DNA of 64,000 nt, taken from assembly GCA_029573725.1 (NCBI GenBank), contig JAKQDQ010000042.1:312777-376776 (forward strand). Reading direction: 5' to 3'. The translations under genes were made by a program, and so were the position numbers. Each line of letters opens with the position of its first letter. The first letter of the stretch is position 1. The stretch is from Verrucomicrobiota bacterium (GTDB lineage Bacteria; Verrucomicrobiota; Verrucomicrobiia; Limisphaerales; JADLHS01). Shown piece after piece: positions 42,101-64,000 of the stretch. The notes under the pieces are model-generated. The model saw only the letters and a program-made list of their open reading frames with translations. It was not told the origin of the DNA and searched no databases.

Positions 42101-42437
42101 GCACTGCGGCCTGCACGGAATTGGCTTCAGAGGCGCCACCGTTGGCGGGAAAGTAGAACACTTGCAAAACGCCGCCGACTTCCGAATGCAACCAAACGCG
42201 CAGCCACAACGGTTGTCCATCCGGATAATCGCGGGCCGGTCCGGCGAAGTAAGGGTCGGCACCGCTGATGTCCGCGCGCAGCCCTTCCGGCGTGGCCACC
42301 AATGCACTGAGATCGTGCTGTGCGGTCCACCCTTGTCTTCCGGCCGGCGTCGTGAAATCAAATTCCGGCAACGCGGCTGGCAACCGGCACGCGAAGGCCA
42401 ATACAATAATCGTTCCGAACAGTTTGATCCGATTCAT
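39144..42437 (-). CDS. Large exported protein with duplicated N-terminal beta module, putative carbohydrate-active
   Basis: The 1097-residue protein has a signal peptide (residues 1-22, LFGTIIVLAFACRLPAAL). Two successive copies of a module of about 130 residues follow (about 23-150 and 155-285), each with FDF, TPEGL, DPY, GP-R-YP, PLW and LRIDPPG/LRFDPPG motifs. The middle (about 300-850) looks like a beta-sandwich followed by a helical-barrel half, with LGVTWETDSDFAPAFDSPDR and ANGLVGGVVARLLEIALLTG. The C-terminus is an Ig-like module ending TAFFRLAAPTVNP, a pattern common in Verrucomicrobiota exported proteins. The start overlaps the stop of the broken pseudopilin upstream (ATGA), and GH16 lies before that, so a polysaccharide-processing role is inferred; no catalytic motif was identified. 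Confidence 0.75.
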   Translation of the reverse strand: MNRIKLFGTIIVLAFACRLPAALPEFDFTTPAGRQGWTAQHDLSALVATPEGLRADISGADPYFAGPARDYPDGQPLWLRVWLHSEVGGVLQVFYFPANGGASEANSVQAAVPSGEWVQVRLAVPPLGANYRLRIDPPGQSGSATFAAVRFEERSALPDFDFRTRPDVTAWEAWHAIAALTPTPEGLKIEIGGDDPYVRGPVRNYPADTPLWMHLRLKSDTAGMAQVFYYQTGPTEEDSVRFDVPAGVWTEVKARCPALGSGYRLRFDPPGDNGNCLVERLWFEPRPEITPPAWPTPLQPQPDESALSVTSAGLRIRHAPGGPGMFQVEVEGQSFAAGYPNALLGYLDNQQARWVALDGASASATVQMVNDRLVAETTLMDPDGGQWSFSQAFRASTGGVIEIETSVTVNTNREVIFLPMLCLLAGTDTFGTNKNQALLSGVEYLENEPSSSEADVRGYGARRLVPDAVKLTFPLMALQAQGRYLGVTWETDSDFAPAFDSPDRQFHSGGHLLGIICPGSDGLNRDEGNLLPYGGRGLAANEPLVLRAKLLGGAGESVVPAIQKYVELHGTITPPTPDLNETSFNQLEANGWLDSAIREENLFRHADASGFVAVPSAEAAVWLDWLAGGVQDTTLSNQLRTLASAAIAAVSPEHYVLSGLGHVWHPTAPLVYGAVAENVNSARTQGEQLLQRFQGPGVILYEAPAAGPDYSQTHWSKEANGLVGGVVARLLEIALLTGDRPLLTNGLLHLRALSKFDRTVPRGAQTWEIPLHTPDVLAAARLVRAYTLGYELTGDITLLDRARYWAWTGVPFVYLDPVTTGPVGVGASIAVLGATGWVAPLWIGLPVQWCGLVYGNALYRLARYDSSGPWTALADSIVASAVQQVYRNDEPARQGLLPDSFTLRLQSRHAPAINPATALSQSWQYFGSRPVYDYQVLRRFGVRVHAAGQLTDLEERSDGFRFTVQGWSTSPHWLLLNGIRQTPQVRINGQAVSLSAPHAYSSSQGWLILQVPTVAEVEVKVPATAWLQIHWNPPATIVLQWPSVASEYFLERAATLDATASWERVSTTPSLDGDWLRWTNDSPGTAFFRLAAPTVNP

Positions 42438-46505: not shown

Positions 46506-46621
46506 GATCGATACGTGTCGCGCACAGCGTGCCGCATGTCGCCGGGCTCCGTCAACCCGGCCGCGGCGGACCGCGTCTTTGCACGCTCGACAGCCCGCCG
46601 CCGATCCCGTCATGATGGCGC

Positions 46622-49312
46622 ATGGCAAGCATGGGGCGGGTGATTGCTGGTTTCGCGTGTTCCACCGCGGTGATGGCCGGGGCGGCCACGGTGGTGGAAT
46701 CGGATATTTGTGTGTATGGAGGCACCTCCGGGGGGATCGCGGCGGCAGTGCAGGCCACCCGGATGGGCAGGACCGTTTCGCTGGCGGTGTTCAACACGCA
46801 TTTGGGCGGGCTGACCACGGGCGGGCTGGGGGCCACGGATGTTGGCAACATCGGCTCCATCGGTGGCGTGGCGCGCGAATTTTATCAACGCATCGGCCGG
46901 CGCTATCAACAGGCGGAACGGTTCAATTTTGAACCCCACGTGGCCCGCGCGGTGTACACGGACTGGCTGGCGGAAATTGGCGTGACGCCGCGCTGGAATC
47001 AGCGGCTCCAGGCGGTGGAGAAGGACGGGGAACGCATCACGCAGCTGACGATGGAAGACGGCACGGTGTACCGCGCCAAAATGTTCATTGACGCCACCTA
47101 CGAAGGCGACCTGATGGCGCTGGCCGGCGTGAGCTTCACTTTTGGGCGGGAGGGCACGAATGTTTACGGTGAATCGCTGAATGGGATCCGCGCCGAAACA
47201 CCCTTTCACCAGTTCACCGTGCCGGTGGACCCCTACGTGGTGCCGGGCGATCCGGCGAGCGGGTTGCTGCCGTTCATCCAGGCCGGGGAGGGCGGCGTTC
47301 CCGGGGAGGGCGATCACCGCATTCAAGCGTTCAATTACCGGCTGTGTTTCACGCAAAATCCGACGAACAAGCTGCCACATGCGGTGCCACCGAATTATGA
47401 CCCGGCACAATACGAACTGCTGGGCCGGCTGCTGGAGGCGCGGGTGGCTGCGGGCGAAACGCTGACCATCCACCAGTTTTTTGGCGTGATCAACATGCCC
47501 AACGGGAAGACGGACATGAACAACAACGGCGCGTTCTCCACGGACTTCATCGGCATGAATTACACCTACCCGACCAACACCTACGCCGCCCGGGAGGCGA
47601 TGGACCGCGCCCATCTCGAATATGTGCAGGGGCTGGTGTATTATCTGGCCACGAGCCCGCGTGCCCCCGCCTCCCTGCGCGCGCAGATGCTCAGCTGGGG
47701 ACCGTGCCGGGATGAATGGCCGGAAACCGGCGGGTATTCGCCGCAAATCTACGTGCGTGAAGCGCGACGCCTGGTCAGTGATTACGTGATGACCCAGGCC
47801 GATTGCCAGAGCGCCCGCCAGGCGGCGGATTCCATCTGCCTCGGTTCCTACAACATGGATTCGCACAACTGTCAGCGCGTGGTGCAGCACGGTTGGGTGC
47901 GGAATGAGGGCGACGTGCAGGTGCGCGCGCCCGTCCCGTATCCGATCGCCTACCGGTCCATCGTGCCGCGGGTGGGGGAATGTGAAAACCTGTTCGTTAC
48001 TTTCGCCATTGCCGCCAGCCACATCGCGTTCGGTTCGACCCGGATGGAGCCGGTTTTCATGATGACGAGCCAGGCCGCGGCCACGGCCGCCGCGTTCGCC
48101 ATTGACGACGCCGTGCCGGTCCAACAGGTCTCCTATGCCAAGCTCGCGCTGCAACTGCGGGCCGACGGACAAATTCTCGCCTGGGGCGACCCGGGCGTGG
48201 AGGGGACGGTGCTGGATAACACGGATCCGCGCGTCGTCTTCAGCGGCGTGTGGAGCAACAGCACCTCGGTGCCCGGTTATTGGGGCAACAATTACGCGCA
48301 TGACGGCGACGAACTGAAGGGTCTCAAGATGGCGGTATTTCGTCCCAACCTGCCCGCTGCGGATTCGTATGACGTTTATCTCCGCTGGACGACGCACGCG
48401 AACCGCGCCACCCGGGTGCCGGTGGATATTGTGCATCCGGCCGGGGTGGAAACCGTGTTCGTGGACCAGACCCGGGACAACGGCACCTGGGTGCGTTTGC
48501 TCACCACCAACTTCAACGCCGGAACGAACGGCTATCTGCGGATACGCACGACGGGGACCGGCGGGTTTGTGATTGCCGATGCCGCCCGGTGGGTTCCGGT
48601 TGCCGGGGCGGATCAGCCGTGGGTGCAATTAATCGCCACCGACCCGGTGGCCAGTGAAACGGGGAAGGTGGCCACGTTGTTGTTCAGCCGGCCGGACTTT
48701 GCCACCAACGCCGCGGTCACGGTGCAATATGAATTGAGTGGCCCCGCCCGCAATGGCGTGGATTACGAGGCCTTGCCAGGCAGTTTGGTTTTACCCGCCG
48801 GCGTGGCCCGGGCGCGGGTGATCGTGGCGGCCATCCCCGACGCGATCCCCGAGGGAGACAAGTGGTTGACGGTTACGCTCGCGCCGGGGCCGGGCTACAC
48901 CGTGGGTGCGCTGTCGGCCGCCCAGGTCCGGATTCTTGACGCTCCATTCGATGCGTGGCGGTGGCAGCACTTTTCCGCGCCGGAGCTGGAAGCGCCGGAG
49001 GTGAGCGGCGCGGCGGCGGATCCGGATCAGGATGGAGCCGACAACTGGCACGAGTTCGTTGCGGGCACCCATCCCCGCGATGCAACGAGTGTGTTGCGCG
49101 TGCGGATTGATGCCTCCACCAATACGGCGGAACTCCAATTTTCAGCGGCAACCAATCGCGCGCTCACCCTGCAGTACTGCGATCGGTTGCCGACAGATAC
49201 ATGGCAGGATTTGACCAACATCGCGCCCGCCACGGTCGAGCGGATCATTATTTACACCGACGTGCTTCCGCCCGGTTTGACCAATCGTTATTATCGCGTC
49301 CGTGTGCCTTGA
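46622..49312 (+). CDS. Exported FAD-dependent oxidoreductase with golvesin-like and Calx-beta modules
   Basis: The 896-residue protein has a signal peptide (to about residue 21) and an FAD-dependent oxidoreductase of the PF12831 type: Rossmann loop DICVYGGTSGGIAAAVQATR, THLGGLTTGGLGATDVG, MFIDATYEGDLMALAGVSF, RRLVSDYVMTQADCQ and IAASHIAFGSTRMEPVFMM. After residue 530 come a golvesin-like beta domain (RVVFSGVWSNSTSVPGYWGN, YDVYLRWTTHANRATRVPVD, FVIADAARWVPV), a Calx-beta repeat (about 670-775; GPARNGVDYEALPGSLVLPA), and a C-terminal thrombospondin-3-like piece (DPDQDGADNWHEFVAGTHP) with a short beta tail. Such proteins are frequent in Planctomycetota and Verrucomicrobiota near sugar genes; the substrate is unknown. 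ATG 46631 is an alternative start. Confidence 0.87.
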   Translation: MASMGRVIAGFACSTAVMAGAATVVESDICVYGGTSGGIAAAVQATRMGRTVSLAVFNTHLGGLTTGGLGATDVGNIGSIGGVAREFYQRIGRRYQQAERFNFEPHVARAVYTDWLAEIGVTPRWNQRLQAVEKDGERITQLTMEDGTVYRAKMFIDATYEGDLMALAGVSFTFGREGTNVYGESLNGIRAETPFHQFTVPVDPYVVPGDPASGLLPFIQAGEGGVPGEGDHRIQAFNYRLCFTQNPTNKLPHAVPPNYDPAQYELLGRLLEARVAAGETLTIHQFFGVINMPNGKTDMNNNGAFSTDFIGMNYTYPTNTYAAREAMDRAHLEYVQGLVYYLATSPRAPASLRAQMLSWGPCRDEWPETGGYSPQIYVREARRLVSDYVMTQADCQSARQAADSICLGSYNMDSHNCQRVVQHGWVRNEGDVQVRAPVPYPIAYRSIVPRVGECENLFVTFAIAASHIAFGSTRMEPVFMMTSQAAATAAAFAIDDAVPVQQVSYAKLALQLRADGQILAWGDPGVEGTVLDNTDPRVVFSGVWSNSTSVPGYWGNNYAHDGDELKGLKMAVFRPNLPAADSYDVYLRWTTHANRATRVPVDIVHPAGVETVFVDQTRDNGTWVRLLTTNFNAGTNGYLRIRTTGTGGFVIADAARWVPVAGADQPWVQLIATDPVASETGKVATLLFSRPDFATNAAVTVQYELSGPARNGVDYEALPGSLVLPAGVARARVIVAAIPDAIPEGDKWLTVTLAPGPGYTVGALSAAQVRILDAPFDAWRWQHFSAPELEAPEVSGAAADPDQDGADNWHEFVAGTHPRDATSVLRVRIDASTNTAELQFSAATNRALTLQYCDRLPTDTWQDLTNIAPATVERIIIYTDVLPPGLTNRYYRVRVP

Positions 49313-51062: not shown

Positions 51063-54000
51063 TCACTTCAAACTCAGGGACAGTCGCCAGAACGCGGCGT
51101 CGGCCCCGGGATCCCTTGTGGCCACGATGCGGAAATATCCGCCACCCACATTCTCGACAACAGCAAATTGTTCCCACCAAGCGCCGCCGAGTGCGGGAAC
51201 GGTCTGTAATTTGAAATTAATGAACTGCGCATACGCGGGCGGAAAGTGCCACGTGAGTTGCACCGTGGTTTCATTCACCGCGGCAATCTCCACGGCGGGC
51301 AACCCGAGTTGCGCCGGCGGATAATTCCCGGGCGACCACGGGTCGCTGCCATCGAGATAACTTTGCAACAACGTGTAACCGCCGCCGAGGTCCGCAAAGG
51401 GATCATTACCGGGCGCTCCGAAGAACAGTCGCTCCCAATCATCATCTAACAGGTTGCCGTCACTGTCGGTCGCGGAAGGCAACGGCACACTGGTGACGCG
51501 CGTTTGCGCCTCGTTGCCGATGCGGACGACTTCGAGCGTTTCAGTGGCACACGCACTCGCCGGTACATCCGCAAAGCCCAACACCTGCAATGCCAGGCCG
51601 GGCACGACGTGAAACGCATTTGGAAAGCGATACGGCCGGCCGTTTGCATCCACGAGCGCAACGGTGTTGCCGAAAGCAAACCGATCCAGAATCGTGCAGT
51701 TCAAACCGACAGAATCCGCCCGCACCCGCAAGTCGCGCGTCACCACCGGGCGGGATGATGGCATATTCAGCAGGGAGTCCAAGCCCTGCAATGCTGCTGT
51801 GTAATCCTCGACGGTCAACGGCGTGAGGGTCGCGCCGATTTCCGGTGGCAGCCCACCGACCCAGTCATTGCGATACGCTGACGGCATCACGCCGGTGGCG
51901 AGGAACTCGCGCAAGGCCTCCAGCGGTCCTGGGAATGCGCCCGGAAACACGCCCCCCCAGCGCGCACTGATGCGATACACATCCAGCGTGACGGCGCGCA
52001 ACGCCACCAGCTTGTTATCGCTGGATTCACGCAAGGCCATGCGCATCGTCTTGATGACTTCCCCCAGCAGATGCCCCGTGTCTGATGGCGAACGATACCG
52101 TTCCAGTTCTTCCAGTTGCTCAGGGGTGGGCAGCACGCGACCGGTGGCCACGCCATTCGTCGGGATCGGTGTGGCCGGCTCGGAACTGCGATACGCCGTG
52201 AGCGTGAGCCGATTTGGATTCGCGTTGCCGGGCGTCGGCAGATAGCTCGCGGGCAATACGCCGCGCATCACGAAGCGCCGCGTGATCCATTGCTCGAAGA
52301 CCAATGTGAGCGTGGTTTCCAACGGATCAATCGTCGCTCCCACACTCGGCGGAGGGTTCGTCTGGTAAAATTGAATGGCCGCCGCCTTCCACGCCGCTGC
52401 TTCCGTTGCATCGGAACCACCGCCGTAGGGATGCACGAACGTCACCGCGCTGGACGCCGGCAACACCACGAGGCCCGCCAGTTCGCGACCTTGAAAAAGT
52501 GAACCTGCGCTGTACGGCGGAACAAAATCCAGGGCGAACGACGGTGAACTCGCCGCCACGGTGACGCGCGACCGCCCGGCGCGACCAATGCCGCGCAACC
52601 AAGCCGCCGTCTGGTTCGCCCCAAAGTAGCCCCAGTGCTCCGCCAGGTTGGAATCGAGCGCCTGGCCACTGACATCATAAACCGTGATGTGATTGCCAGG
52701 ATTAGGTTGTCCGTCCGGCAACGCATGTCCGGCGACCAGCGTCGGGACGCTGGCGGTAGTCAGTCCGTCGTGTGACCATGGACGCACATGCAACTCCAGC
52801 GCCGTGCCCGAAGTGTGACGCAACGGCACGCCGGTGTTTTCGAGCAGAATTTGCAGGTAGTTCAGCGTGTTGCCCGGATTATTATTCGCCGCGCGATCCG
52901 GCAACTCGGCGGGGTTAAATCCCAACCCCAATTTCACGTAATCCGGAATCCCATCGTCCAGCGTGCTGAGTTGCCCGGCGGGACTGTTGAAACGGTACCA
53001 CACGTCCAGGACCGCCGTGCGCGCGACACCCGCAGTGGCGTACGCCTGCAACCGCGTGTCGCGATGCAGCCAGATTGGCTGCGTATAAGCCTGCCACGCC
53101 GCGCCGGCTTGGGTGCGAAACACGATGCTGAAACCGGCCGGCGCGATGAGCGTCACCGCCACGCCCTCGTTAAATGTGCCGGGCAACGGCGTGGGTTTGA
53201 CCGCACCCGCCGCCACGCCCGACGCCGCGTCGAGGGGAAACACGGAGAGTTGCGGCTCGAACTGGCTCGCGAGCACATGCGTCGCCCCGCCCGGCGCGGC
53301 GCCAAAACTCACTGCGGCGGGTTGCGCCAGACCGCTCAACTCGTCCGAGAAAGTTTCGCCGGTTGCGGACACTGGCGGCCCGAGCCACGGTGAAGACGAC
53401 CAGTCATGGGAGCGTTGCCGACTCAGCACCCGCGCGTTGGGCGCGACAAACGGCTCGCCGGAATACACCAGCACGTGCCCGGCGCCGCTCACTTCCGACA
53501 CCGGCGCGAGCGTCGTCGTGTTCACCAGATCGTAATTCCCCGTGCCGCTGTTGAATTTGTAACTGCGCGCGGTGCGGGAACGTTCCGTGACCCCAGGTCC
53601 GGAGAGCAGTTGAAACCCATTCGCGCCATTCGGCAGCGCCACCACGCTGGTGAACACTTCACCTGCAGGCGGCGTGAACGTGGCGCTGTTCGTTCCGTCC
53701 GGCGTGTGACGCAACACCGCCTGCGAGCCCTCCGCCGCAATCACCAACAGCCGCGCGGTGTTGTCGGCCGCCACCACCGCGATGCGACCGATGGCGAATC
53801 CCGCGGGCTGGCTGACCGGCGCCCCGGCGGCATAGTTGACGCCATCAAACGTGAGCGGATGCACCTGATAGGTGCCCGCGCCGGGCACATAGGTGACCAG
53901 TTGCGCGAGTGGCCCGGCAAACGGGCTGAGCACAAATTGTCCATCAACCGGCAGTGACGGAACCGTGAGTCGCAGTGGCGAACCGGCTTCATTCAACGCC

Positions 54001-54725
54001 CGCACGCGCAGCAACGACGTACCCACCGTGACCCGTTCGTAATAGGCGACTTGATGGGTCGCGCCGTTCGCCAGGAGCACGCGGGTGGCTTGTTCGTAAC
54101 TGCGATCGGAGTTTTGGCCCAGCAAGGTGTGCGTGGTGAAGGCCGAGCCGCCACCGTTGATGAACAGGCGCACAATGTTCTCGGTCGCGCCGTTCCAGGT
54201 CGAACTTAACAGCAAATCCTCCAGGGCACTCGTGCCGGTGATTTGTCCGGCGGCGAGCGAAAACGGACCGATCATGCCCGGCGGAATCCAATCACTCAAT
54301 TGCGGCATCGCACCGGAGCCATTGATCCCGACCAGTTTCACACGGCCTGACTCCGGCGCGGTGAGCGCCAGCGTGTCACGCGTCGTCACAAGCAAGCGCC
54401 CGGCCGTCACGCCCGTGATGTTGTAAATGCCCGCGGCCAGACCGGGCGTCCATTCCAGCGCGCCGGAGTTGTCGAGTTGGAAGCCCGCTCGCACCGTGCC
54501 CGTCCCGCGATCAATGAGAACCACATCCGCACGCCCATCGCCATCGAGGTCCGCGTAACCGGTGGCTTCCACCGGCCCGACGTGAAATTGCGTTGGCGGA
54601 AGCGGTGACTGGGCCAGCGCCACGATCCGTGGGAAGAGCCAGCAGAGCAGCAACAGCTCGAGAAGCGCGAAACGCGCGAACCGTCCAACGGACCGGCGAC
54701 AGGACCGTCGCCCGCCTCGGGGCAT
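51063..54725 (-). CDS. Giant exported protein 3 (FG-GAP-like, chitobiase-like Ig and TSP3-like segments)
   Basis: The product, about 1220 residues, has a basic N-terminus and signal peptide (FARFALLELLLLCWLFPRIV). An FG-GAP/VCBS-like segment follows (TGYADLDGDGRADVVLIDRG, with a second weaker one near LEDLLLSSTWNGATENIVRL). Near residues 510-600 is a chitobiase C-terminal-like Ig module (PGTFNEGVAVTLIAPAGFSI, WLHRDTRLQAYATAGVARTA). Then come a TSP3-like stretch (LSTLDDGIPDYVKLGLGFNP), a long mixed region, a second such stretch (SDGNLLDDDWERLFFGAPG), and a closing FN3-like module ending DAAFWRLSLSLK. It is the last of three giant genes. ATG 54725 suits the signal; ATG 54869 overlaps the previous stop (TGATG) and would add 48 basic residues. 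Function unknown. Confidence 0.72.
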   Translation of the reverse strand: MPRGGRRSCRRSVGRFARFALLELLLLCWLFPRIVALAQSPLPPTQFHVGPVEATGYADLDGDGRADVVLIDRGTGTVRAGFQLDNSGALEWTPGLAAGIYNITGVTAGRLLVTTRDTLALTAPESGRVKLVGINGSGAMPQLSDWIPPGMIGPFSLAAGQITGTSALEDLLLSSTWNGATENIVRLFINGGGSAFTTHTLLGQNSDRSYEQATRVLLANGATHQVAYYERVTVGTSLLRVRALNEAGSPLRLTVPSLPVDGQFVLSPFAGPLAQLVTYVPGAGTYQVHPLTFDGVNYAAGAPVSQPAGFAIGRIAVVAADNTARLLVIAAEGSQAVLRHTPDGTNSATFTPPAGEVFTSVVALPNGANGFQLLSGPGVTERSRTARSYKFNSGTGNYDLVNTTTLAPVSEVSGAGHVLVYSGEPFVAPNARVLSRQRSHDWSSSPWLGPPVSATGETFSDELSGLAQPAAVSFGAAPGGATHVLASQFEPQLSVFPLDAASGVAAGAVKPTPLPGTFNEGVAVTLIAPAGFSIVFRTQAGAAWQAYTQPIWLHRDTRLQAYATAGVARTAVLDVWYRFNSPAGQLSTLDDGIPDYVKLGLGFNPAELPDRAANNNPGNTLNYLQILLENTGVPLRHTSGTALELHVRPWSHDGLTTASVPTLVAGHALPDGQPNPGNHITVYDVSGQALDSNLAEHWGYFGANQTAAWLRGIGRAGRSRVTVAASSPSFALDFVPPYSAGSLFQGRELAGLVVLPASSAVTFVHPYGGGSDATEAAAWKAAAIQFYQTNPPPSVGATIDPLETTLTLVFEQWITRRFVMRGVLPASYLPTPGNANPNRLTLTAYRSSEPATPIPTNGVATGRVLPTPEQLEELERYRSPSDTGHLLGEVIKTMRMALRESSDNKLVALRAVTLDVYRISARWGGVFPGAFPGPLEALREFLATGVMPSAYRNDWVGGLPPEIGATLTPLTVEDYTAALQGLDSLLNMPSSRPVVTRDLRVRADSVGLNCTILDRFAFGNTVALVDANGRPYRFPNAFHVVPGLALQVLGFADVPASACATETLEVVRIGNEAQTRVTSVPLPSATDSDGNLLDDDWERLFFGAPGNDPFADLGGGYTLLQSYLDGSDPWSPGNYPPAQLGLPAVEIAAVNETTVQLTWHFPPAYAQFINFKLQTVPALGGAWWEQFAVVENVGGGYFRIVATRDPGADAAFWRLSLSLK

Positions 54726-54868
54726 GGGAAGGTGCTCCCTGCACCGCAGGGCAAATTGTCCAACCTGACGGTTCATGGGATTTTCAAACCCTGTGTTTCC
54801 CGTCCCGACGGCTCTGCCGCGCCGCCGGTCTGGCTTTCGAATCTGGAGGATAGATTGCCTGGCATTCA

Positions 54869-57800
54869 TCACAGTTCGACGTCGTTGGTCACGAGCACTT
54901 CTTCGATCTCGCCCGTGACGGGGTGCAGCAGCATGAGGTAATAGCGATACTTTGCCCGCCCCACGATGGGTTGGGTGTCCAACACGTACAGATAGCCGGG
55001 ATCGGCTGGCGTGGCGCTCGCGCCGTTGGGTTGTTTCACATGGACAAACGGATCGTAAATCGTGTAACCGCCGGAACTCGTCGCCCACGCGATGGCTTCC
55101 ATGCGCGGTGACACCTGCGAAATATCGCCGGGCACTTGGGGCCAGAGCGCACTGGGTACTTGTGTCCGATACAGCACAAACGGCGTCAACCGGCGCGGCT
55201 CCCCGCTGCCGAGCCGCACATATACCTTCTGCAAGGGGTCGGTGACATCGGTGGTGGTCAGCAGGAAACGCGAGTTCTCCACGTCATGCGTGATGCGGCC
55301 CACCAGTTCGCCGATGCGCACCATGCCGCCGCCCCAAATCGGATTCGACTCAGCGACAATGTTTGGATGAAAGCTGGCGGCCGGCATCGTGGGCGGCAGT
55401 TTGCGCGAAGGCCAGGGCACGTCCGGCCCGACGTATTCCTGCGGGGGCGACCAGGTAAAGCGTTGCTTGTTGCTGCGCGGCGTTTGCCCGCCGGTCACCG
55501 TGGTGCCGCGCACATAGATGTCCAGTTCAGCATCCACCGCCAGCGGAACTTCCACTTGGAACGAAGAACCGTTGCCAAAGCCATCCCGCAAATCCGGCGT
55601 GACATAGCGCCGGTAGGATTTCAGTCCGATCATGATGTTGTCCTGATAAGTCAAACCCGGCACGGTGCCGTCAGGAATGGGGGGCAGCCCGCTAATGAGC
55701 ACTTGGAAGCTGCGCAAGCCCCACCGCGGCGCGAACCATTGAATGCGCGCGACGGGATTGGTTTCACCGCCAAGCGGTCGCACCGGCGCGAGGACCGGCG
55801 CGGGGGGGGCAAATTTGAAATTCAATCCCACACAACCCAGTGGTGTGAGTGGACCGGGATTGCCGTGCCGGTCAAACGCCTGCACAAAGAAACATGCCTC
55901 GCCTGCATAGAGCGGCATGGAGGTCCAGAGATTCACAATCGGTGTGTTGGTGTCGAACGTGCCGGAATCCTCGCGCAGCAACGTGAGCGGACCGTCATCC
56001 ACGCGGAAATAGAGTTTGTATTGCGTCATGTCCGGCAGCGGCAGGAACGAGACTTCCAGGCCATTGTCCGTTTGGCCTTCCACCTCCGGCGGCACGGGCA
56101 CATGCGCTTCGCACGGACGCCGACCCGATGCCAAATCCACCAGCCCGGTTTCGTAATGGACGCTGACGTCCACCGTCACCACCGCGCCGACGTTGGTGGC
56201 GGGAGCGGGCAGATTTACCGTGTATTGCGGCGTTTCAAATCCACTGCCCGCCAGCGTGCCGACGCGCGCCCGCAACCAGACCGAAAAACCCTCCGCCTGG
56301 GGCACGTACGTCAGGCGCAGCGGCAGGAACATCTCCCCCGGTTCAAATTCAAACCGCCCCACCTGCACACTCGACGTGCCCAGACCCCAGTCCAATTCCA
56401 CCCAACCCAGATTCGGGTCCTGGTTTGTCCGCACGAACACCACGTCCACCGTGATATAGGTCGGAATCACGGGACCGGTCGAGGGGTATTGTCCCTCCAC
56501 GAGCCGCCGGCCAAACTCCGCGACCGGTTCAGCACACTGAATGACCAGCCCGCCTTCCGGCGAACCCGGCCCGGTGCGATCTCGCAGCACTCCTGCCACG
56601 GGCGGACTGTGCCCAGAAATGTTCCCGCCAAAGGGTGGCGTGGCGCAGGCGACGGCATTCGTCGTGTCGTCCACCGCGCGCACGGTGTACCAATACGTCT
56701 TCGCGCAATCCGCCGGCGCACTGGGTGAACCCGGGCCATTGTCGAGGAATGAAAACTCCGTTGCATTTCCCGTGTGGGGCACGGTGCCGACGAGATTGGC
56801 GAGCGGGTTGCCGCCGAGCGCAGTGAGTTGCGCGGTGCTTTCCCAGCGATACACGGCGTAAAGCGTCGTGGCCTTGTCTTCCTCCGGCGGATTCGCCGCC
56901 CACCGCACCCGCAAATGCTGCTGGGGCGTGCCGGGATTCTGATAATCATTGTCCACCCGCAACACCTTCGGTACGCGCGGCGGCAACCGGCTGCAAAATG
57001 TGCCCAACACCCCGGGCGATACCGCCCCGTCGCGACCCAGCAAGTCGCACGCGGTGACGAAGTAATAATACTGATCGCCGTTCTTTGGCGGAGGCGCGGT
57101 GGGATGGCCGGGAAACCGGCTGCCATGATCCGCCACAAACTGCACGGTGTGATCACTCGTCGCCGCTTCCACGGCATCCAACGTGCGACCCGGCAGCACG
57201 GGTGCTTGATTCACGCGTCCGACCGGCCCCAGCGGATTGAGCGCCTGACTGACGAGCGTCGCCGCCGCCGGCGGGGTGTTGTGCCAGTTGTTGGCCTCGG
57301 CGTGATTTCGGCTCACGCGCCAGACATTGAAACCGTGCTGCGCGAGGGAAAGTCGCCGCAATGCGGATGGACTGTCCCACCGCAGCGGAATGGCGAGATC
57401 CGTCGTGGCAGGCCGGTTCGGATCTGGCGGGGCGATTTGCACCGTGCTGGGCGCGGGCAACGTCAGCGGCGCGGCGGCGTTCACCGTCACGCGGCCCAGT
57501 ACCGCTTCATCCGGCGCGGTCGGCGAGGGGCGATACCGAATCTCAAACGTGACCGGACCACTCGGGGGAATCGGCACCGCGTGCCCGGTCCCGAGGGCCA
57601 TGGCCAGCGACGGAAACGTGCGCGCGGCGAGTTGCAGTGCGCCGAGTAATTCCGGTTTGTCCGCCACGCCTTGAATCACTGCCGACGCAATTTCGGCATC
57701 GGACAAACTGGTGTGTGGCACGAGTTCCTCGAACAACTCGGTCAACGCTGTGCGCAGGGCGGCGGAATTTTCCCCGAGCGCACTTCGGGCGCGATCCTGC

Positions 57801-58273
57801 AAACTGCCAATGGCCGCGGCCGACGTCTGCACGCGCACGACGGCTTCAAGGCGATAATTACCGGGTGCATCCGGCAGGCCGTCCTTGCGCCAGACGGACC
57901 AATTGCGCGGGGCGAACAAATCCAACGCCGTCGAGCGCCAGTGGAGATATGCCCAATGCTGGCCGTTGGCTTGCGTGGTGAGGCCGACGGTATAAACCAT
58001 CGGCTCTGCGCCCTGCGCGAGCGCGGGGGTTGCCCGGAACAGGATTCCAGCCACCAACATCAACGCAAAAACAAGTGTTTGCCCTCCGGATTGGCAGCAA
58101 CCGACGCAAGTCGGCTCCAACCTCTTCGGGGATTCAGGTGGAGCGGACCCATGTCCACTGCCACAGGGGACATGCTGAGGGCGGGCGATGAACCCACTTT
58201 TCGGTTTCATCGTGACTGCCCCGGAAACTCGCGCCGCCGGCGCTGCATTCAAATGGTTCATCCCCAGTTTCAT
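54869..58273 (-). CDS. Giant exported protein 2 (fibronectin III-like modules)
   Basis: The 1134-residue protein has a hydrophobic signal at residues 66-87 (TLVFALMLVAGILFRATPAL), unusually far from the start. A helical piece (ARSALGENSAALRTALTELF, DAEIASAVIQGVADKPELLG) is followed by a series of FN3-like modules from about residue 200 to 1130 (HLRVRWAANPPEEDKATTLY, YWYTVRAVDDTTNAV, DMTQYKLYFRVDDGPLTLLR, RYYLMLLHPVTGEIEEVLVT). ATG 58273 overlaps the stop of the upstream giant gene (ATGA). The first 60 codons carry two DNA hairpins (58101-58114 and 58150-58174), so they may be leader rather than coding sequence. No enzyme motif was seen. It probably works with its two neighbours as a surface assembly. 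Confidence 0.72.
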   Translation of the reverse strand: MKLGMNHLNAAPAARVSGAVTMKPKSGFIARPQHVPCGSGHGSAPPESPKRLEPTCVGCCQSGGQTLVFALMLVAGILFRATPALAQGAEPMVYTVGLTTQANGQHWAYLHWRSTALDLFAPRNWSVWRKDGLPDAPGNYRLEAVVRVQTSAAAIGSLQDRARSALGENSAALRTALTELFEELVPHTSLSDAEIASAVIQGVADKPELLGALQLAARTFPSLAMALGTGHAVPIPPSGPVTFEIRYRPSPTAPDEAVLGRVTVNAAAPLTLPAPSTVQIAPPDPNRPATTDLAIPLRWDSPSALRRLSLAQHGFNVWRVSRNHAEANNWHNTPPAAATLVSQALNPLGPVGRVNQAPVLPGRTLDAVEAATSDHTVQFVADHGSRFPGHPTAPPPKNGDQYYYFVTACDLLGRDGAVSPGVLGTFCSRLPPRVPKVLRVDNDYQNPGTPQQHLRVRWAANPPEEDKATTLYAVYRWESTAQLTALGGNPLANLVGTVPHTGNATEFSFLDNGPGSPSAPADCAKTYWYTVRAVDDTTNAVACATPPFGGNISGHSPPVAGVLRDRTGPGSPEGGLVIQCAEPVAEFGRRLVEGQYPSTGPVIPTYITVDVVFVRTNQDPNLGWVELDWGLGTSSVQVGRFEFEPGEMFLPLRLTYVPQAEGFSVWLRARVGTLAGSGFETPQYTVNLPAPATNVGAVVTVDVSVHYETGLVDLASGRRPCEAHVPVPPEVEGQTDNGLEVSFLPLPDMTQYKLYFRVDDGPLTLLREDSGTFDTNTPIVNLWTSMPLYAGEACFFVQAFDRHGNPGPLTPLGCVGLNFKFAPPAPVLAPVRPLGGETNPVARIQWFAPRWGLRSFQVLISGLPPIPDGTVPGLTYQDNIMIGLKSYRRYVTPDLRDGFGNGSSFQVEVPLAVDAELDIYVRGTTVTGGQTPRSNKQRFTWSPPQEYVGPDVPWPSRKLPPTMPAASFHPNIVAESNPIWGGGMVRIGELVGRITHDVENSRFLLTTTDVTDPLQKVYVRLGSGEPRRLTPFVLYRTQVPSALWPQVPGDISQVSPRMEAIAWATSSGGYTIYDPFVHVKQPNGASATPADPGYLYVLDTQPIVGRAKYRYYLMLLHPVTGEIEEVLVTNDVEL
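58101..58174. other. Two hairpins at the 5' end of giant gene 2
   Basis: CCGAC-GCAA-GTCGG (58101-58114) and CATGTCC with GGACATG (58150-58156 with 58168-58174) are perfect stems of five and seven base pairs. They lie inside the annotated N-terminal extension of giant protein 2, between the coupled ATG and the signal peptide. They could control translation or mark a mobile palindromic insert. Confidence 0.45.
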
Positions 58274-61200
58274 TTCACACTCGGTTTGCTGCCATTGGAT
58301 TTGCCGCCGCCAGTTTCAGCGGAGATTTTCACCGTGCGCGACGCTTCCACGCACAGCGGACAGACCCCGATTTCCACATACACCCGGCCCTGGCCGGTGA
58401 GTTTGAACTTCGAACCTTGCTTCAGCCCGGCCATGTTGAGCTCGCCGCCCAGACTCAACATGCACAACGCATCACCGGACACCAACAACTTGCCGCGCGC
58501 GCCATAGGTCGGCCCTTCGACAAAGTAGAAAATCCCCAGGCCCATGCCGGCGTTGACGCGGAAGAAACACGTCGCCGGAATACCGAGCATCGCCTCGGAC
58601 ACGGGAATGTGCGCCTCGCCATAAACATACGCGCCGGTGAACGTCGGATTCGGCTGGCCCAGCGCGCCCGCCGCGAACAGGTCCCACATCATGATCGGCG
58701 CGAGCGAACAGGTGCGCCCAAAGAAGATGCCGCCCTTGGCCTTGTAACTGTTGAACCGCAATCCCAAGGCGGCGGACAAATAATTCTCCTCGGCCCCAAA
58801 CGCCACCGCCACGGCAAGATCCGTAATCGAGAACGCCTCAAAAGAAACCTCGCCCGCCGTCTTCTGCACCGAACCAGCGAAACCGATGGGCTGTAATTTC
58901 CCCTGCGGCGTGATGGCGAACGAAAACTTGGTGTTGATGTCCGCCCGTAAATCCGGACTCAGAAAATCGAACGGCACATTGACCGCGCCCAGGATGACTT
59001 CCGCCGCATCCATCCCCGCCACGCCGCACGGGGAATCGTCCGCGCCGGACTGGTATTGATTGATCTCCATGAACGCGTTGAACGTGGTCTTTTCGGGAAC
59101 GGACCATTGGAACTTCGCGTCCACCCGCACCTGCCGCAGGGCGTCGCCGTTGAAAATGGCGTAACCATCAATGCCCGCGCTCGCCATCGCCGGACCAAAC
59201 AATCCCAGCACATTGCTAAAACCCAGGTCCAGATCCGTGAAGGCCGAGGTCAGCGCGCCCTTCACAATCTCGTTCACCTGGCCAAACGTTGAATCCAGCG
59301 CGCTGCGCAACGCGCCGTTCAAATCAAAGACGCGCTGCTTGATGGTGCTCTGCACGTTGGCGACGTAGGCCGTGGCGTAAAACTTGTCCGTCACACTGCG
59401 TCGCAGTTTTTGTTTCACGACCGTCGTGCTGGCGAGGTTAAACCGGTTGTTGGCGTTGAACGTGCCGAGGTAACTGCGAATGTTGCTGCGGATTTGCTCG
59501 TTGAGCGCGGCAAACTCACTGCTCAACGCGGCGGCCAGCAGGCTGTTGAGTTCCGTCCCGAATTGACCATTCAACGAGGTGCGCACCTGGAACAGCGCCG
59601 TGCGCAGCTCCACACAGGCATTGCGCAGGTCCGCCAACGTCGGCGCGGCGGATTCGAGATGTGGCACGAACAACGCGTCGAGTTCCGCCGCCGCGAGATT
59701 CCCCACCACCGCGGCCAGGTTGCCGCTGACTTCGGCGGCAAGTTCCTCGACGAGGACGCGCACCAAGGTTCGCATGAGCGCCGGGTCCACCGCGCCATTG
59801 ACGCCGGGTCGCAGCAACCCCTGCGGCCCGGTGAAGGTGTCGAGCGCGGCGATGGTTTGATCCAACGCACTGCCCAGTTCGGCGATTTGCGATCCCGGCC
59901 CGCCCCCGAGTTTGCTCCAAATTTGCTGCTCCACCAGCGGGAATGCTCCCGCAAAGTAGTTGGACAACGACGGCGCAGTGCCGCCGACCCAACCCGTGCC
60001 GGTCCATTGCGTCAACAGATGCGCGTGAATCTGATTCGCCAGCGAATCCAAGCTGCTGCCAAGAAATCGTTCGAAGTGTTCCTCCATGCGATCCGCCAGC
60101 AAGCCGTTCATGCGCTCCAAGCCGGTGTTTAAGGAGCCGACCACCGCGCTGCCAAGCGCGTTGCTGATGACCGTGGCCATGCCGGTCGCCTCGCCCACCG
60201 TATCCAAAACGAAGTTCGCAAGGTTCACCTGTGGCAAACCGACCTGGGCGCCGAACCGGACTTCTGCGCGTTCGGCACTGAGATAGGCGATGCGTTGTTC
60301 CATGTTGAGCACCACGAAATCGTCCTTGATCGGCGTCACCGAACGGAACGAACGGGTCGGGAAATCCCAGCGCACCGGGAAATTGAAATCAATCGCGCCG
60401 CCGAGCCATTCCTGTTTGGCGCGCGTGAAGTAAGTCGCGTTGGTGCGGTAGTTCAACAGATTCGCCGCCGTGCTGCCCGGGAAGCCGCGATTGTCGGGAT
60501 CGTGATAACCGTTTTGGAAGAAGCTCTTGCTGCTCCACGTGCCGTTGGCCAGGAAGATTTCCGCATTGCCCCAAACACCAGGATTGTCCGGATTCGCGGG
60601 CGGGCGATGCGACGCCGTTTGCAGATGCGCCGGCAACGCCTCGAAGAACGACACTTTCACGAGGCCGGGCAGATTGATGAACCCTTTTTCCAACGCGCCC
60701 GGGCCGGGATTGGGATGCACGTAATTGGGCGCGTTGCCCAATGTGTTGAAGAACGCCCCAACCGTCGGCGTGACATAATACGTTTCATAACCACTCGCTC
60801 CCGGAGCCGCGCGGCGCGGTCCGCGAACTTTCACTTGGGACGGCGCGAGCAATCGCGAGTCAAGATTCGTCGGCCCGCCGTTGCGCGGAATGAAGTTGCC
60901 ATGCGGAAACACGCCCAGTTTGCCCTGAAACGAATCGCTGACGTGCGCCATGCAGGCATCCACGCCAAGCGCGAGAAAGCCGTTGCCCGGATTGCAGAGT
61001 TGCGCCGGGTCGCGGGTGAATTCAATCGCCGAAACATCCAGCGGCGCCTCCCAGTATTTCGCCACGATGGACTGCGGTCCGTTTTGCACGTCGGCTTTAT
61101 CGAGCGCGCCGTTGCACAGGAACATCAGCCTCTCGAACGCAATGGTGGCATCGGTGGGATACGGGAGATACAGACTGCCCTCCGTGCGGGAATCCACGTT

Positions 61201-63750
61201 TTCGTTCGAAAGGAACGCGAGACCGAAATTGAGGAAGGTGAACTGATAGCCGTTGATGAGCACAAGCTGCGGGGCGGTTTGCACCTTGTCGTGAATGCCC
61301 GAAATGCCGCTCCGGCGGACGTAATACTTCGAGCGGCCTTTCAAATCATACGGGCCGTATTGTCCGCCGCCGAGCGTGCTTTGGCCCAGCAACCCGGAGG
61401 CGGTGATGGAATTGCTCGGGCCGGCACGGAAGTTCATGCCCGCGTAATCGGCGTGTCCCAACCAATACGAGCCGAAGTTCCCCGGCCGCTCGGTTACGTC
61501 GCCGGTGGCGGGATTCGCGCCCGACAGCAGAATAACTCCGGGCCGCCGGTCCTGCGGGAATTCGCCCAGCACATTGTTGTATTGCCCGTGCAGAAAGTGT
61601 CCCGGCCAATGCACACTGCCGCGCGCGAAGGCATCCGTTTGATGCGCGTAACTTCCGAGCGACGGAATCCAGCCCCAGCGCAACGCGAAATCCGGGGTGA
61701 TGTCGCCCACACCCACCAAGCCACCATCGGTGGTGAAGCGCAGTTGCAGATTGTCCGGGTAGAGGAACGCATTGGTTGGCGAAGTCGTGCCGCATCCCGG
61801 TTCAACGCAATCCGCCGAGACCGGCACCGTGACGAATCCCGGCGCCGCGGCAAGATTCAAGTGACTGTCTTCCGTTTGCACCCGGTCGTTGACCACGCGC
61901 ATCAACCCGGTGCCGGAAAGAAATGCCGCGCGTTCGGGAAAATGCGCGACGTGAACCCAGCCCCCATTGCCGCCGAATTCAAACTCCCCCGACAATTCCG
62001 CACCGGCCTTGTAACCCGCCGTCACCACGAAATCCGTCCCCACCCCCGACACCGTGCGCCAATATGCATCGTTGGAGGGCTTGGTTTTGTAAGCGGCGGC
62101 CACGGGCGCATTGGAGAGCGCGGTGTATTGATGCTGTTGCACATGGAAGACGCTCGCAGGACTGAACGTCGGCATCTCGAATCGTCCCAGCAACCGCCGC
62201 CACGTGAGGCTGCTCACCCGCACCGTGGCGGGTTTGGTTTCCTCAGCCACCCAGAGCTGGTTGCCGCCCGGGGGCGTAACCGTGAGGTCCGCCGTCGGCA
62301 ACAATTGCGAGTCCAGTTGATGCGGGCCGTTGAAGATCATCGTACCCTCCAGCCGCCGCGCGTTGTTCGTGGTGGCCCAACCGAAGCCGGCGGGCAAAAT
62401 CACTTCCAACTGTCCCGCCTTCGCCCCGGCGGCATCCAGCGTGAGTTGATTGCGAAAGAATCGCACCCCGTTCATTTCCGCGAGATCAATGCCCGGCGGC
62501 ACCAGCCCGATACTCGAAGGCGAACGACAATACGCCGAGCCATCCGATCGCAGGCCGATGCTGATGGAACCCGGGCCGGCGGTGTAACCGGGAAAACCAT
62601 CCAGCGTCGCGCCGTTGAGCGCGAGGCCCAGCGTGGTGTGAAGGTCCGGACTGACCACTGTTGCGCCGGTGATGGGATTGTTGGTGATCGAGCGAATGGT
62701 CGTCAGCATCGAACCGAATTCAAGTTGGCCATTGAAGTGCAGGAAGCGCAGAAAGCCGGTCGTTCCGGTGGGACCGGCCACATACGTGAACGTGGGGGGA
62801 TCTTCGATGTGTTCGAGCCGCACGCGCAGCCGGTGCGTTTTGCCGACGGAATCCAATTGCACCCCGGGCGCGGGACGGTAGGCAATCTGCCGCGTGAACC
62901 CCACCGTGGCCGGTCGCTGCAGCAACCCGCCACTCCCGGTAAGATATGTCGGCACGGCCGGCGACGGATCGGCGTTAAAGACGCCGCTGGCCAGCGGAAT
63001 GGGCGTCTCCGGCGCGCCGTTTGCGTGGAGTTCAATCACGTATCGCACCAGTACCGTGTTGGTGGCCGGCGACACCGTGGGTTGATCGTAGCGATGCAGG
63101 GTGAAAGTAACGTCGGCAAGCAGGTTGGTTTGCGCGAGATCCGTGTTCGCGAGCCAGCGTTGCGTCAGGGAGGTCGCGGTGAACATGGGCACGACGTTCA
63201 GCGCCGTATCCGAACCCCACGGCCCGCGAAAATGAATGAACGTGCGATTGACGGATTGGTTGGTGCCGAGGAGCGCGCCGCCGCTGGTTTGGTAAACTTC
63301 CGCCTCGACGCGATAGTTCACATAAGGATCAAGTTTGGCAGTGGGAATGAGATTCGTGTTGAAATTCAGGGTGTTCGTGCCAGGCGAGAGAAAGAGCGCC
63401 GATTGCGGTGAGGTCGTAATCGTGGTGGCCCCGCCCTGCAAGGGATGCAATTCCCCGGTGGCCTGGTTGCGCAACCGAAATCGCACGGCCATGGCCGCGC
63501 TGCTCTCCTGCCCCGCGCCAGTTTTCCCCACGATCACCGGCATCCGCACTGGCAGCAGATGGCGGAAATAGTTCGTTTGTCCCCGGGAGGCATCCGAGTC
63601 AATGACGTAACCGGGCGCGGCGTAGTTTGTAATGATCGGCACGCCCATCGAGTACGTGATGGCCGCGCGGGCTGAAATCGCGCCCAAGAGCATTGGCGTC
63701 AGCAACAGACTGGGCAGGGCAATTCCTGTAAAACCTCGCTTACGACGCAT
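58270..63750 (-). CDS. Giant exported protein 1, about 1826 residues, unknown family
   Basis: A signal peptide (residues 1-28, GIALPSLLLTPMLLGAISAR) is followed by about 1100 residues of beta-rich sequence with repeated Thr/Asn/Gly patterns (IAYRPAPGVQLDSVGKTHRL, GVGDITPDFALRWGWIPSLG, YDLKGRSKYYVRRSGISGIH). A helical, coiled-coil-like block of about 320 residues comes next (about 1165-1480; LERMNGLLADRMEEHFERFL, LVRVLVEELAAEVSGNLAAV, LSSEFAALNEQIRSNIRSYL), then a C-terminal domain of about 340 residues (FSITDLAVAVAFGAEENYLS, GIFFGRTCSLAPIMMWDLF, MLGIPATCFFRVNAGMGLGI) ending in a C-P-L-C pair and a Lys/Gly/Ser tail. I recognise no family. ATG 63750 gives the signal; eight codons upstream are in frame. 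First gene of the three-gene cluster; its stop overlaps giant gene 2. Confidence 0.78.
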   Translation of the reverse strand: MRRKRGFTGIALPSLLLTPMLLGAISARAAITYSMGVPIITNYAAPGYVIDSDASRGQTNYFRHLLPVRMPVIVGKTGAGQESSAAMAVRFRLRNQATGELHPLQGGATTITTSPQSALFLSPGTNTLNFNTNLIPTAKLDPYVNYRVEAEVYQTSGGALLGTNQSVNRTFIHFRGPWGSDTALNVVPMFTATSLTQRWLANTDLAQTNLLADVTFTLHRYDQPTVSPATNTVLVRYVIELHANGAPETPIPLASGVFNADPSPAVPTYLTGSGGLLQRPATVGFTRQIAYRPAPGVQLDSVGKTHRLRVRLEHIEDPPTFTYVAGPTGTTGFLRFLHFNGQLEFGSMLTTIRSITNNPITGATVVSPDLHTTLGLALNGATLDGFPGYTAGPGSISIGLRSDGSAYCRSPSSIGLVPPGIDLAEMNGVRFFRNQLTLDAAGAKAGQLEVILPAGFGWATTNNARRLEGTMIFNGPHQLDSQLLPTADLTVTPPGGNQLWVAEETKPATVRVSSLTWRRLLGRFEMPTFSPASVFHVQQHQYTALSNAPVAAAYKTKPSNDAYWRTVSGVGTDFVVTAGYKAGAELSGEFEFGGNGGWVHVAHFPERAAFLSGTGLMRVVNDRVQTEDSHLNLAAAPGFVTVPVSADCVEPGCGTTSPTNAFLYPDNLQLRFTTDGGLVGVGDITPDFALRWGWIPSLGSYAHQTDAFARGSVHWPGHFLHGQYNNVLGEFPQDRRPGVILLSGANPATGDVTERPGNFGSYWLGHADYAGMNFRAGPSNSITASGLLGQSTLGGGQYGPYDLKGRSKYYVRRSGISGIHDKVQTAPQLVLINGYQFTFLNFGLAFLSNENVDSRTEGSLYLPYPTDATIAFERLMFLCNGALDKADVQNGPQSIVAKYWEAPLDVSAIEFTRDPAQLCNPGNGFLALGVDACMAHVSDSFQGKLGVFPHGNFIPRNGGPTNLDSRLLAPSQVKVRGPRRAAPGASGYETYYVTPTVGAFFNTLGNAPNYVHPNPGPGALEKGFINLPGLVKVSFFEALPAHLQTASHRPPANPDNPGVWGNAEIFLANGTWSSKSFFQNGYHDPDNRGFPGSTAANLLNYRTNATYFTRAKQEWLGGAIDFNFPVRWDFPTRSFRSVTPIKDDFVVLNMEQRIAYLSAERAEVRFGAQVGLPQVNLANFVLDTVGEATGMATVISNALGSAVVGSLNTGLERMNGLLADRMEEHFERFLGSSLDSLANQIHAHLLTQWTGTGWVGGTAPSLSNYFAGAFPLVEQQIWSKLGGGPGSQIAELGSALDQTIAALDTFTGPQGLLRPGVNGAVDPALMRTLVRVLVEELAAEVSGNLAAVVGNLAAAELDALFVPHLESAAPTLADLRNACVELRTALFQVRTSLNGQFGTELNSLLAAALSSEFAALNEQIRSNIRSYLGTFNANNRFNLASTTVVKQKLRRSVTDKFYATAYVANVQSTIKQRVFDLNGALRSALDSTFGQVNEIVKGALTSAFTDLDLGFSNVLGLFGPAMASAGIDGYAIFNGDALRQVRVDAKFQWSVPEKTTFNAFMEINQYQSGADDSPCGVAGMDAAEVILGAVNVPFDFLSPDLRADINTKFSFAITPQGKLQPIGFAGSVQKTAGEVSFEAFSITDLAVAVAFGAEENYLSAALGLRFNSYKAKGGIFFGRTCSLAPIMMWDLFAAGALGQPNPTFTGAYVYGEAHIPVSEAMLGIPATCFFRVNAGMGLGIFYFVEGPTYGARGKLLVSGDALCMLSLGGELNMAGLKQGSKFKLTGQGRVYVEIGVCPLCVEASRTVKISAETGGGKSNGSKPSVK

Positions 63751-63893
63751 AATCACGCGGCGGATGCAGCACAAAAATCCTGCTCATGTTTTGTAAATAC
63801 GGAACTTGTTGCCAGCGGTTGCAGAAAATGTAAGGCGAACCGTCCAGTCGTCTGATTCCATTTGCAGTGCGGGGACTTTGCGTGCAATGGGGC

Positions 63894-63920
63894 AAAAACC
63901 CGGGATTGGATACTCCCGGG
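63894..63920 (-). terminator. Rho-independent terminator of the gene entering from the right edge
   Basis: On the minus strand, CCCGGGA (63920-63914), an eight-base loop, TCCCGGG (63905-63899), then TTTTT (63898-63894). It lies 28 bases beyond the stop of the partial gene and upstream of giant gene 1, so it insulates the cluster. The giant-gene promoter must lie in the remaining 140 bases (63751-63893); a TGCAAC / TATTTA pair with 18 bases between them near 63785-63820 is a weak candidate. Confidence 0.75.
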
Positions 63921-63947
63921 CATCGGCTGGCTGAAAAACCTCCCTGC

Positions 63948-64000
63948 CTACCAATCCAGGCCCAGCTTCGCCAGCTCGGCGCGAAGTTCAGGCAGTTGCC
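63948..64000 (-). CDS. C-terminal end of an unidentified minus-strand protein
   Basis: The last 17 codons are visible and read LPELRAELAKLGLDW before a TAG stop (63950-63948). The amphipathic helix and the terminator just downstream mark a real gene end. Seventeen residues are too few to name a family; the rest lies beyond the window. Confidence 0.55.
   Translation of the reverse strand, partial: QLPELRAELAKLGLDW

Follow-up and report, generated by a model that had tools for sequence, protein, structure and literature searches.

The Giant1-5 proteins of Apilactobacillus kunkeei are very large extracellular proteins encoded by consecutive genes, and their predicted role is at the cell surface (PMC12863079). 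The three genes presented here resemble them in these respects. A. kunkeei is a Firmicute, and its giant proteins measure 3,000-8,000 aa.

A second point of comparison is the ECF43 sigma factors paired with Hanks-type kinases (EcfK-PknS, EcfP-PknT). In Xanthomonas and Vibrio, the neighbouring Hanks-type kinase directly phosphorylates and activates the ECF sigma factor (PMC13147305). These pairs and our locus both place an ECF sigma gene beside one for a Ser/Thr kinase, and both lie close to a large machine that is, or in our case may be, at the surface or secreted.

The window is the whole stretch of DNA that was analysed, 64,000 nucleotides from a Verrucomicrobiota bacterium. Near one end it holds three long genes, here called A, B and C, and no description of this trio as a gene module was found in the open-access literature. 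Verrucomicrobiota are abundant in soil, sediment and water, and to our knowledge few multi-gene surface systems have been described for them. The trio is almost never apart, occurs in several orders and in multiple copies, and is linked to a sigma/kinase pair at some loci. It is a strong and testable candidate for attachment to, or recognition of, polymers, surfaces or other organisms. The linkage also makes A, B and C a natural unit for genetics and cryo-EM.

Layout of the locus

The three genes are as follows.

58270-63750, minus strand: gene A, a 1826-aa exported protein, or 1834 aa with the upstream TTG at 63774 (from the reading frame and homologues)
54869-58273, minus strand: gene B, a 1134-aa reading frame, exported; candidate starts at 58273, 58210, 58120 or later
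51063-54869, minus strand: gene C, exported; candidate starts at 54869, 54776 and 54725, the last being best for the signal peptide

A preliminary description of the window had placed three adjacent long minus-strand reading frames here. They are present, with a third-position GC of 0.73-0.76 in all three, which is the bias of coding DNA. It had also called all three proteins exported; signal peptides are indeed found in each, in B and C from the later starts.

The overlaps claimed between the genes are a more mixed case. The TGA stop of A overlaps the ATG of B as ATGA (58273-58270), and TGATG at the end of B gives a 1-base overlap with a possible C start at 54869. These letters are present, but as real coupling they are doubtful, because B and C possibly start further in. 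The first hydrophobic stretch of B, its signal peptide, comes only about 65 residues into the reading frame, and that of C is better fitted by a start at 54725 or 54776. Given these uncertain start codons, the 4-base A/B overlap may not be true coupling in the window. Many homologues have no more than about 10-60 nt between the stop of A and the beginning of conserved B sequence, which means that the tight packing is real at the level of the family. Rfam and tRNA scans of the window gave no matches.

The set of three was confirmed, but the gene set continues past the window edge, which lies 226 bases upstream of the longest A start. There the end of a Ser/Thr kinase gene appears at 63948, with an ECF sigma gene beyond it. 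The features upstream of A, partly in coordinates of the longer locus L098, are:

63894-63921, minus strand: terminator-like hairpin and T-run between the kinase gene and A (RNA fold z -2.4)
L098:11725-14814, with its 3' end at 63948-64000 of the window, minus strand: gene for a WD40-repeat Ser/Thr kinase of 1,029 aa, directly upstream of A
L098:14846-15598, outside the window, same strand as A: ECF sigma gene, beyond the kinase gene

The hairpin between the kinase gene and A suggests that A is probably under its own promoter. A promoter for A was sought, and none was identified.

Linkage, distribution and the neighbouring sigma factor

Of 116 related genomes, 25 have A and 25 have B, the two sets being identical. 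When 84,980 species genomes were scanned with the A profile, 79 loci were found; the scan relied on one peptide pattern, so it may miss distant members elsewhere. All records that name a group name Verrucomicrobiota, and two say only 'bacterium'. The carriers belong to Opitutales, Limisphaerales/Pedosphaera, Kiritimatiellales/Pontiellaceae, Verrucomicrobiaceae and Akkermansiaceae. Roughly one in 15 of 388 sampled genomes of the phylum has a full-length A match. Occurrence is patchy: within the window's own genus, A is present in two examined genomes and absent from four. No relatives were found among plasmids and viral contigs. Weak matches to the C-terminal profile of A in genomes without a full match were confined to the helical block, and were set aside.

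Searching every locus in six frames with A, B and C profiles yielded 86 non-redundant A loci. B is linked in 75 of the 76 that have more than 1 kb of sequence after A. The single locus without it, L121, lies on a short contig where C immediately precedes A, and it resembles the loci ordered B-C-A. Both B and C are present in 61 of 63 A loci with more than 7 kb of sequence. Nearly all loci have the order A-B-C, as the preliminary description had hoped to see in several Verrucomicrobiota. Three have B-C-A (L075, L132, L173), and in one (L174) A is divergent from B and C (C'B'-A). Single, unlinked homologues, which would have spoken against a shared role, were not found.

Genomes with more than one copy (for example G052 and G093) hold whole sets, up to four or five per genome. 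The pairwise identity matrices of the three proteins correlate as well (Spearman 0.74 for A/B, 0.60 for A/C and 0.54 for B/C), and none of 300 permutations came as high. Part of this correlation is due to shared ancestry.

It could be that A, B and C are neighbours through history only, with separate jobs. One Pontiellaceae locus, with a 2,124-aa reading frame between A and B (L112:5829-12203), is in line with this. The patchy distribution is identical however, the linkage is near-universal across several orders, and rearranged loci keep the three together. The linkage nearly refutes the idea, and we give it very little credence. The earlier suggestion that the three act together is upheld by identical genome distribution, near-universal linkage and co-varying divergence: it is very likely that A, B and C work together.

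Several loci deserve separate mention. On one contig (G052:C35) two complete A-B-C sets, L087 and L088, are separated by about 6 kb. L103 and L172 seemed at first to contain A-B fusions, but these were artefacts of how reading frames were picked, with A in another frame; the same goes for apparent losses of B or C in L126, L143 and L174. In L092:7785-14732, one 2,315-aa frame joins A minus its last ~260 residues to B minus its first ~525. This may be a natural fusion, a deletion or an assembly fault. The trio is also seen on contigs labelled Akkermansia muciniphila (L108, L132, L137, L140, L173 and L177). Their sample-style isolate names suggest that these are mislabelled environmental genomes.

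A first set of 31 loci, from 19 genomes, includes 4 with a sigma gene of the same type as that near the window at most 5 kb from the trio; a second set of 33 loci, from 29 further genomes, includes 7, so 11 of 64 overall. About 0.6 and 0.7 (about 1.3 in total) are expected, by a hand estimate from genome densities of about 1.6 such genes per Mb, weighted by the genomes in question. The window's own genome has only three in 4.28 Mb. No such gene is nearby in the other 53 of the 64 loci checked. The enrichment is real, and it is confined to a minority of loci. The position of the sigma gene relative to the trio varies: upstream and divergent, upstream on the same strand, or downstream. At about ten other loci the sigma gene and a kinase gene together adjoin the trio, in differing orientations.

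The gene context typical of ECF43, a sigma gene beside a Hanks-type kinase gene, is found in the window's own genome and at several loci. At the DxxD site of region 2.2, an alignment shows that most of these sigma factors keep the acidic residues (DARD, DAQD, EAED etc.), whereas ECF43 has QTTA in this place. They keep an acidic site that ECF43 lacks, and are therefore not simply ECF43. PADLOC anti-phage models did not match A, B or C at E up to 0.001; the upstream kinase alone matches, and only to generic kinase models.

Predicted architecture of the three proteins

A has no family match in Pfam, NCBIfam or PHROGs (for the window protein, Pfam and NCBIfam were scanned at E up to 1). It was modelled in two parts from alignments of about 80 relatives. 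Mean pLDDT is 89.9 and pTM 0.65 for residues 40-1185, and 84.4 and 0.76 for residues 1140-1834. The predicted parts of A are:

62740-63657, minus strand: N-terminal region of Ig-like beta-sandwich domains, residues 40-345 (model and fold matches)
60235-62736, minus strand: all-beta core, residues 347-1180, where conservation across the family is highest (conservation profile, alignment and model)
59242-60180, minus strand: helical bundle, residues 1199-1511, which the preliminary description had called a helical central block (model)
58312-59187, minus strand: barrel-like beta meander of 15 long antiparallel amphipathic strands, residues 1530-1821 (model)
58351-58362, minus strand: conserved hairpin that immediately precedes the final strand, CPLC here and CPFC as family consensus

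The first ~300 residues are modelled as Ig-like sandwiches (VIA-align Z up to 10.9, with 111 residues aligned at rmsd 2.9). They are weakly similar to the biofilm matrix protein RbmA. A viral structure library gave only weak matches of Ig or tail-fibre type. A profile of the N-terminus found no match in the PDB. In the N-terminal part of 71 homologues, Pfam finds a lectin-like LamG module (Laminin_G_3) in 13, an InhA-like MAM module in 6, Big_5 in 3 and propeller repeats in 2. The N-terminus of A is thus a site where lectin-like, Ig and propeller modules are swapped across homologues. For the core (about residues 350-1180) there are few fold-search rows among the matches listed, where Ig domains dominate, and it carries no claim of a novel fold.

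That A has a helical central block was borne out by the predicted bundle. A membrane-type helix, defined as a 19-residue Kyte-Doolittle window above 1.6, is absent from this block in 76 of 78 members, the threshold being exceeded in only two. The hydrophobic membrane-inserting helices that mark tripartite alpha pore-forming toxins are thus not seen in the block. A sequence search of the PDB with A gave only matches of coiled-coil or apolipoprotein type in the same block, which were taken as an effect of composition.

These helices bear on the idea that the trio is a multi-component complex, toxin-like or injection-like, directed at other cells. A would bind and insert, while its partners B and C would carry receptor-binding modules that can be exchanged. 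Several features would suit this: the three exported proteins are large and encoded together, their binding modules are swapped, A has long helices, and control by the sigma/kinase pair is probably inducible. Weak helical matches to subunits of alpha-pore-forming toxins would suit it too. In Xanthomonas, a type VI system directed at amoebae is driven by a kinase/ECF pair (PMC13147305). The block is without a membrane-type helix in nearly all members however, and its matches include many unrelated coiled coils. By Pfam and NCBIfam, none of the three proteins has a toxin domain or belongs to a Tc or Rhs family, no TcA, TcB or TcC/Rhs domain was found in 32 B and 29 C homologues either, and no variable toxic C-terminus was noted. 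We hold a toxin-like complex to be improbable.

One face of the C-terminal meander is hydrophobic and the other polar, with 7% charged residues on one and 29% on the other. By VIA-align, nearly every one of the nearest structures is a barrel of the outer membrane (MOMP and the Occ porins, for example), with Z up to 13.7, but with an rmsd of 8-10 over about 250 residues. Foldseek gave no significant match for this model (best E 0.012). The meander could be a barrel in the membrane or a curved sheet that faces lipid, the model being proof of neither. Conserved cysteines, which are unusual for a barrel, a charged tail and the high rmsd of the fold matches count against barrel anchoring. The C-x-x-C tail noted earlier is real: it is CPLC in the window protein and CPFC in the family consensus. 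A classical C-terminal aromatic outer-membrane signal was not found in A, which ends in the charged tail.

One alternative is that A carries or stores a lipid or other hydrophobic ligand, with the meander and the helical block forming a hydrophobic cavity, like that of large lipid transfer proteins. The amphipathic strands do have one hydrophobic face, and apolipoprotein B, vitellogenin and lipovitellin are among the low-ranking matches; apoB100, listed amid numerous barrels, reaches Z 13.0 with an rmsd of 8.4. Foldseek probabilities for these matches are only 0.06-0.10 however, and the lectin and propeller modules would be left unexplained. The beta and helical parts of vitellogenin also come in a different order from those of A. 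This alternative is slightly less credible still than the toxin-like one.

It is somewhat easier to imagine a trio that is freely secreted, or that forms a fibre, sheath or extracellular matrix. The meander would then pack on A or B, and there would be no barrel. Modules of Ig, FN3, LamG and TSP3 type are typical of matrix proteins, the Ig region is weakly like RbmA, and A is without the classical outer-membrane C-terminal signal. But the structures closest to the C-terminal model are barrels from membranes and not soluble sheets. On balance such a structure is unlikely, if clearly less so than a toxin or a lipid carrier.

The window's B protein has no family match in Pfam, NCBIfam or PHROGs. 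The preliminary description called it FN3-rich. In favour of this, a profile of residues 428-570 reaches FN3 chains of neogenin at E=0.009; against it, Pfam on 32 B homologues gave only chance hits, with fn3 in none of them. A profile of residues 722-835 found no match. The sequence pattern weakly suggests FN3-like repeats in B.

C contains, on the minus strand, an FG-GAP-like propeller, a chitobiase-like Ig segment and a TSP3-like stretch, and it closes with an F(Y/W)RL module. Two of these could be placed by profile:

54399-54551, minus strand: FG-GAP_3 match, E 1.4e-4, under the curated cut-off
53028-53156, minus strand: CHB_HEX_C-like Ig segment, E 0.08, stronger in homologues

FG-GAP, chitobiase-like Ig and TSP3 segments had been proposed for C before. 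They are found in homologues, but in the window protein the FG-GAP and chitobiase matches stay under the cut-off. Pfam on 29 homologues gives FG-GAP_3 in 17, TSP3_bac in 17 and CHB_HEX_C_1 in 6. The family of the N-terminal propeller varies between members, with PD40 in 8 of the 29 and RCC1-type or SGL-type propellers in single members.

The end of C (51066-51281, minus strand) is a module loosely similar to the ends of two other proteins of the window, finishing F/Y-Y/W/F-R-L/V. These are the neighbouring FAD-dependent oxidoreductase/Golvesin protein (49100-49309, plus strand) and a 1,097-aa exported protein (39147-39362, minus strand). The common module is possibly a sorting or anchoring tail frequent in the group. 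Two further large reading frames of the window (39144-42437 and 43710-46628, both minus strand) begin with signal-like sequences, and Pfam gave nothing for them at E up to 1.

No enzyme family was found by Pfam and NCBIfam scans in A, B, C or the homologues examined, in agreement with the preliminary description, which saw no enzyme motif. Its suggestion of a surface or secreted assembly is plausible, going by the signal peptides and the Ig, lectin and propeller modules together with this lack of enzymes. An invariant scaffold (the core, helical block and barrel-like end of A, together with B) with two exchangeable ends (the A N-terminus and the C propeller), Sec export, no enzyme family and, at some loci, a sigma/kinase pair argue for surface recognition or adhesion.

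Our preferred reading, at a probability of roughly 40%, is an extracytoplasmic recognition or adhesion assembly, anchored in the outer membrane and under sigma/kinase control. A, B and C would be obligate partners in it, so far only in Verrucomicrobiota. A would be the scaffold, made of the conserved all-beta core, the helical bundle and the amphipathic meander. The meander would most likely be a barrel, or a sheet resembling one, that is inserted in the outer membrane or rests on it. The N-terminus of A would point outward with its Ig-like domains, to which many relatives add an exchangeable LamG/MAM or propeller module. B, with its FN3-like repeats, may join or stiffen the assembly, and C may present a second, variable propeller and calcium-binding TSP3 repeats. 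The ECF sigma factor, activated by the adjoining Ser/Thr kinase, would probably switch expression. The whole would serve to recognise, or to stick to, polymers outside the cell, surfaces or other cells. Observed are the genes with their linkage and co-distribution, the export signals, the swapped modules and the adjoining sigma/kinase pair, besides the predicted folds of A. We infer the physical complex, the anchoring in the outer membrane, the ligand binding and the control by the sigma factor.

Comparison with known systems

The trio could be assigned to no named system among those tested, and no test revealed a new mechanism. It is conceivable, if doubtful, that with it comes a new kind of system for recognition or delivery at the surface: a three-protein cell-envelope machine specific to Verrucomicrobiota, with its own fold (core, helical block and barrel-like end of A), recognition modules exchangeable at two positions, and dedicated sigma/kinase control.

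Large lipid transfer proteins such as vitellogenin and apoB also place an amphipathic beta sheet beside a helical domain. The similarity to A is weak and low-ranked however, and the parts come in another order.

Like Tc (ABC) toxins, the trio consists of three large co-encoded proteins, with exchangeable binding modules, a propeller in one and helices in the largest. Unlike them, A, B and C have no Tc/Rhs match and all carry Sec signals, and no toxin domain was seen.

Type V autotransporters and adhesins resemble A in several ways: a signal peptide, a large beta-rich N-terminal part with Ig or lectin modules, a helical part and a barrel-like C-terminus. A differs in having no autotransporter or intimin match in Pfam or NCBIfam at E up to 1, and four divergent homologues also gave none at E up to 0.1. 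It differs further in its large helical bundle, 15 strands, charged tail and conserved cysteines, and in that it is always accompanied by B and C.
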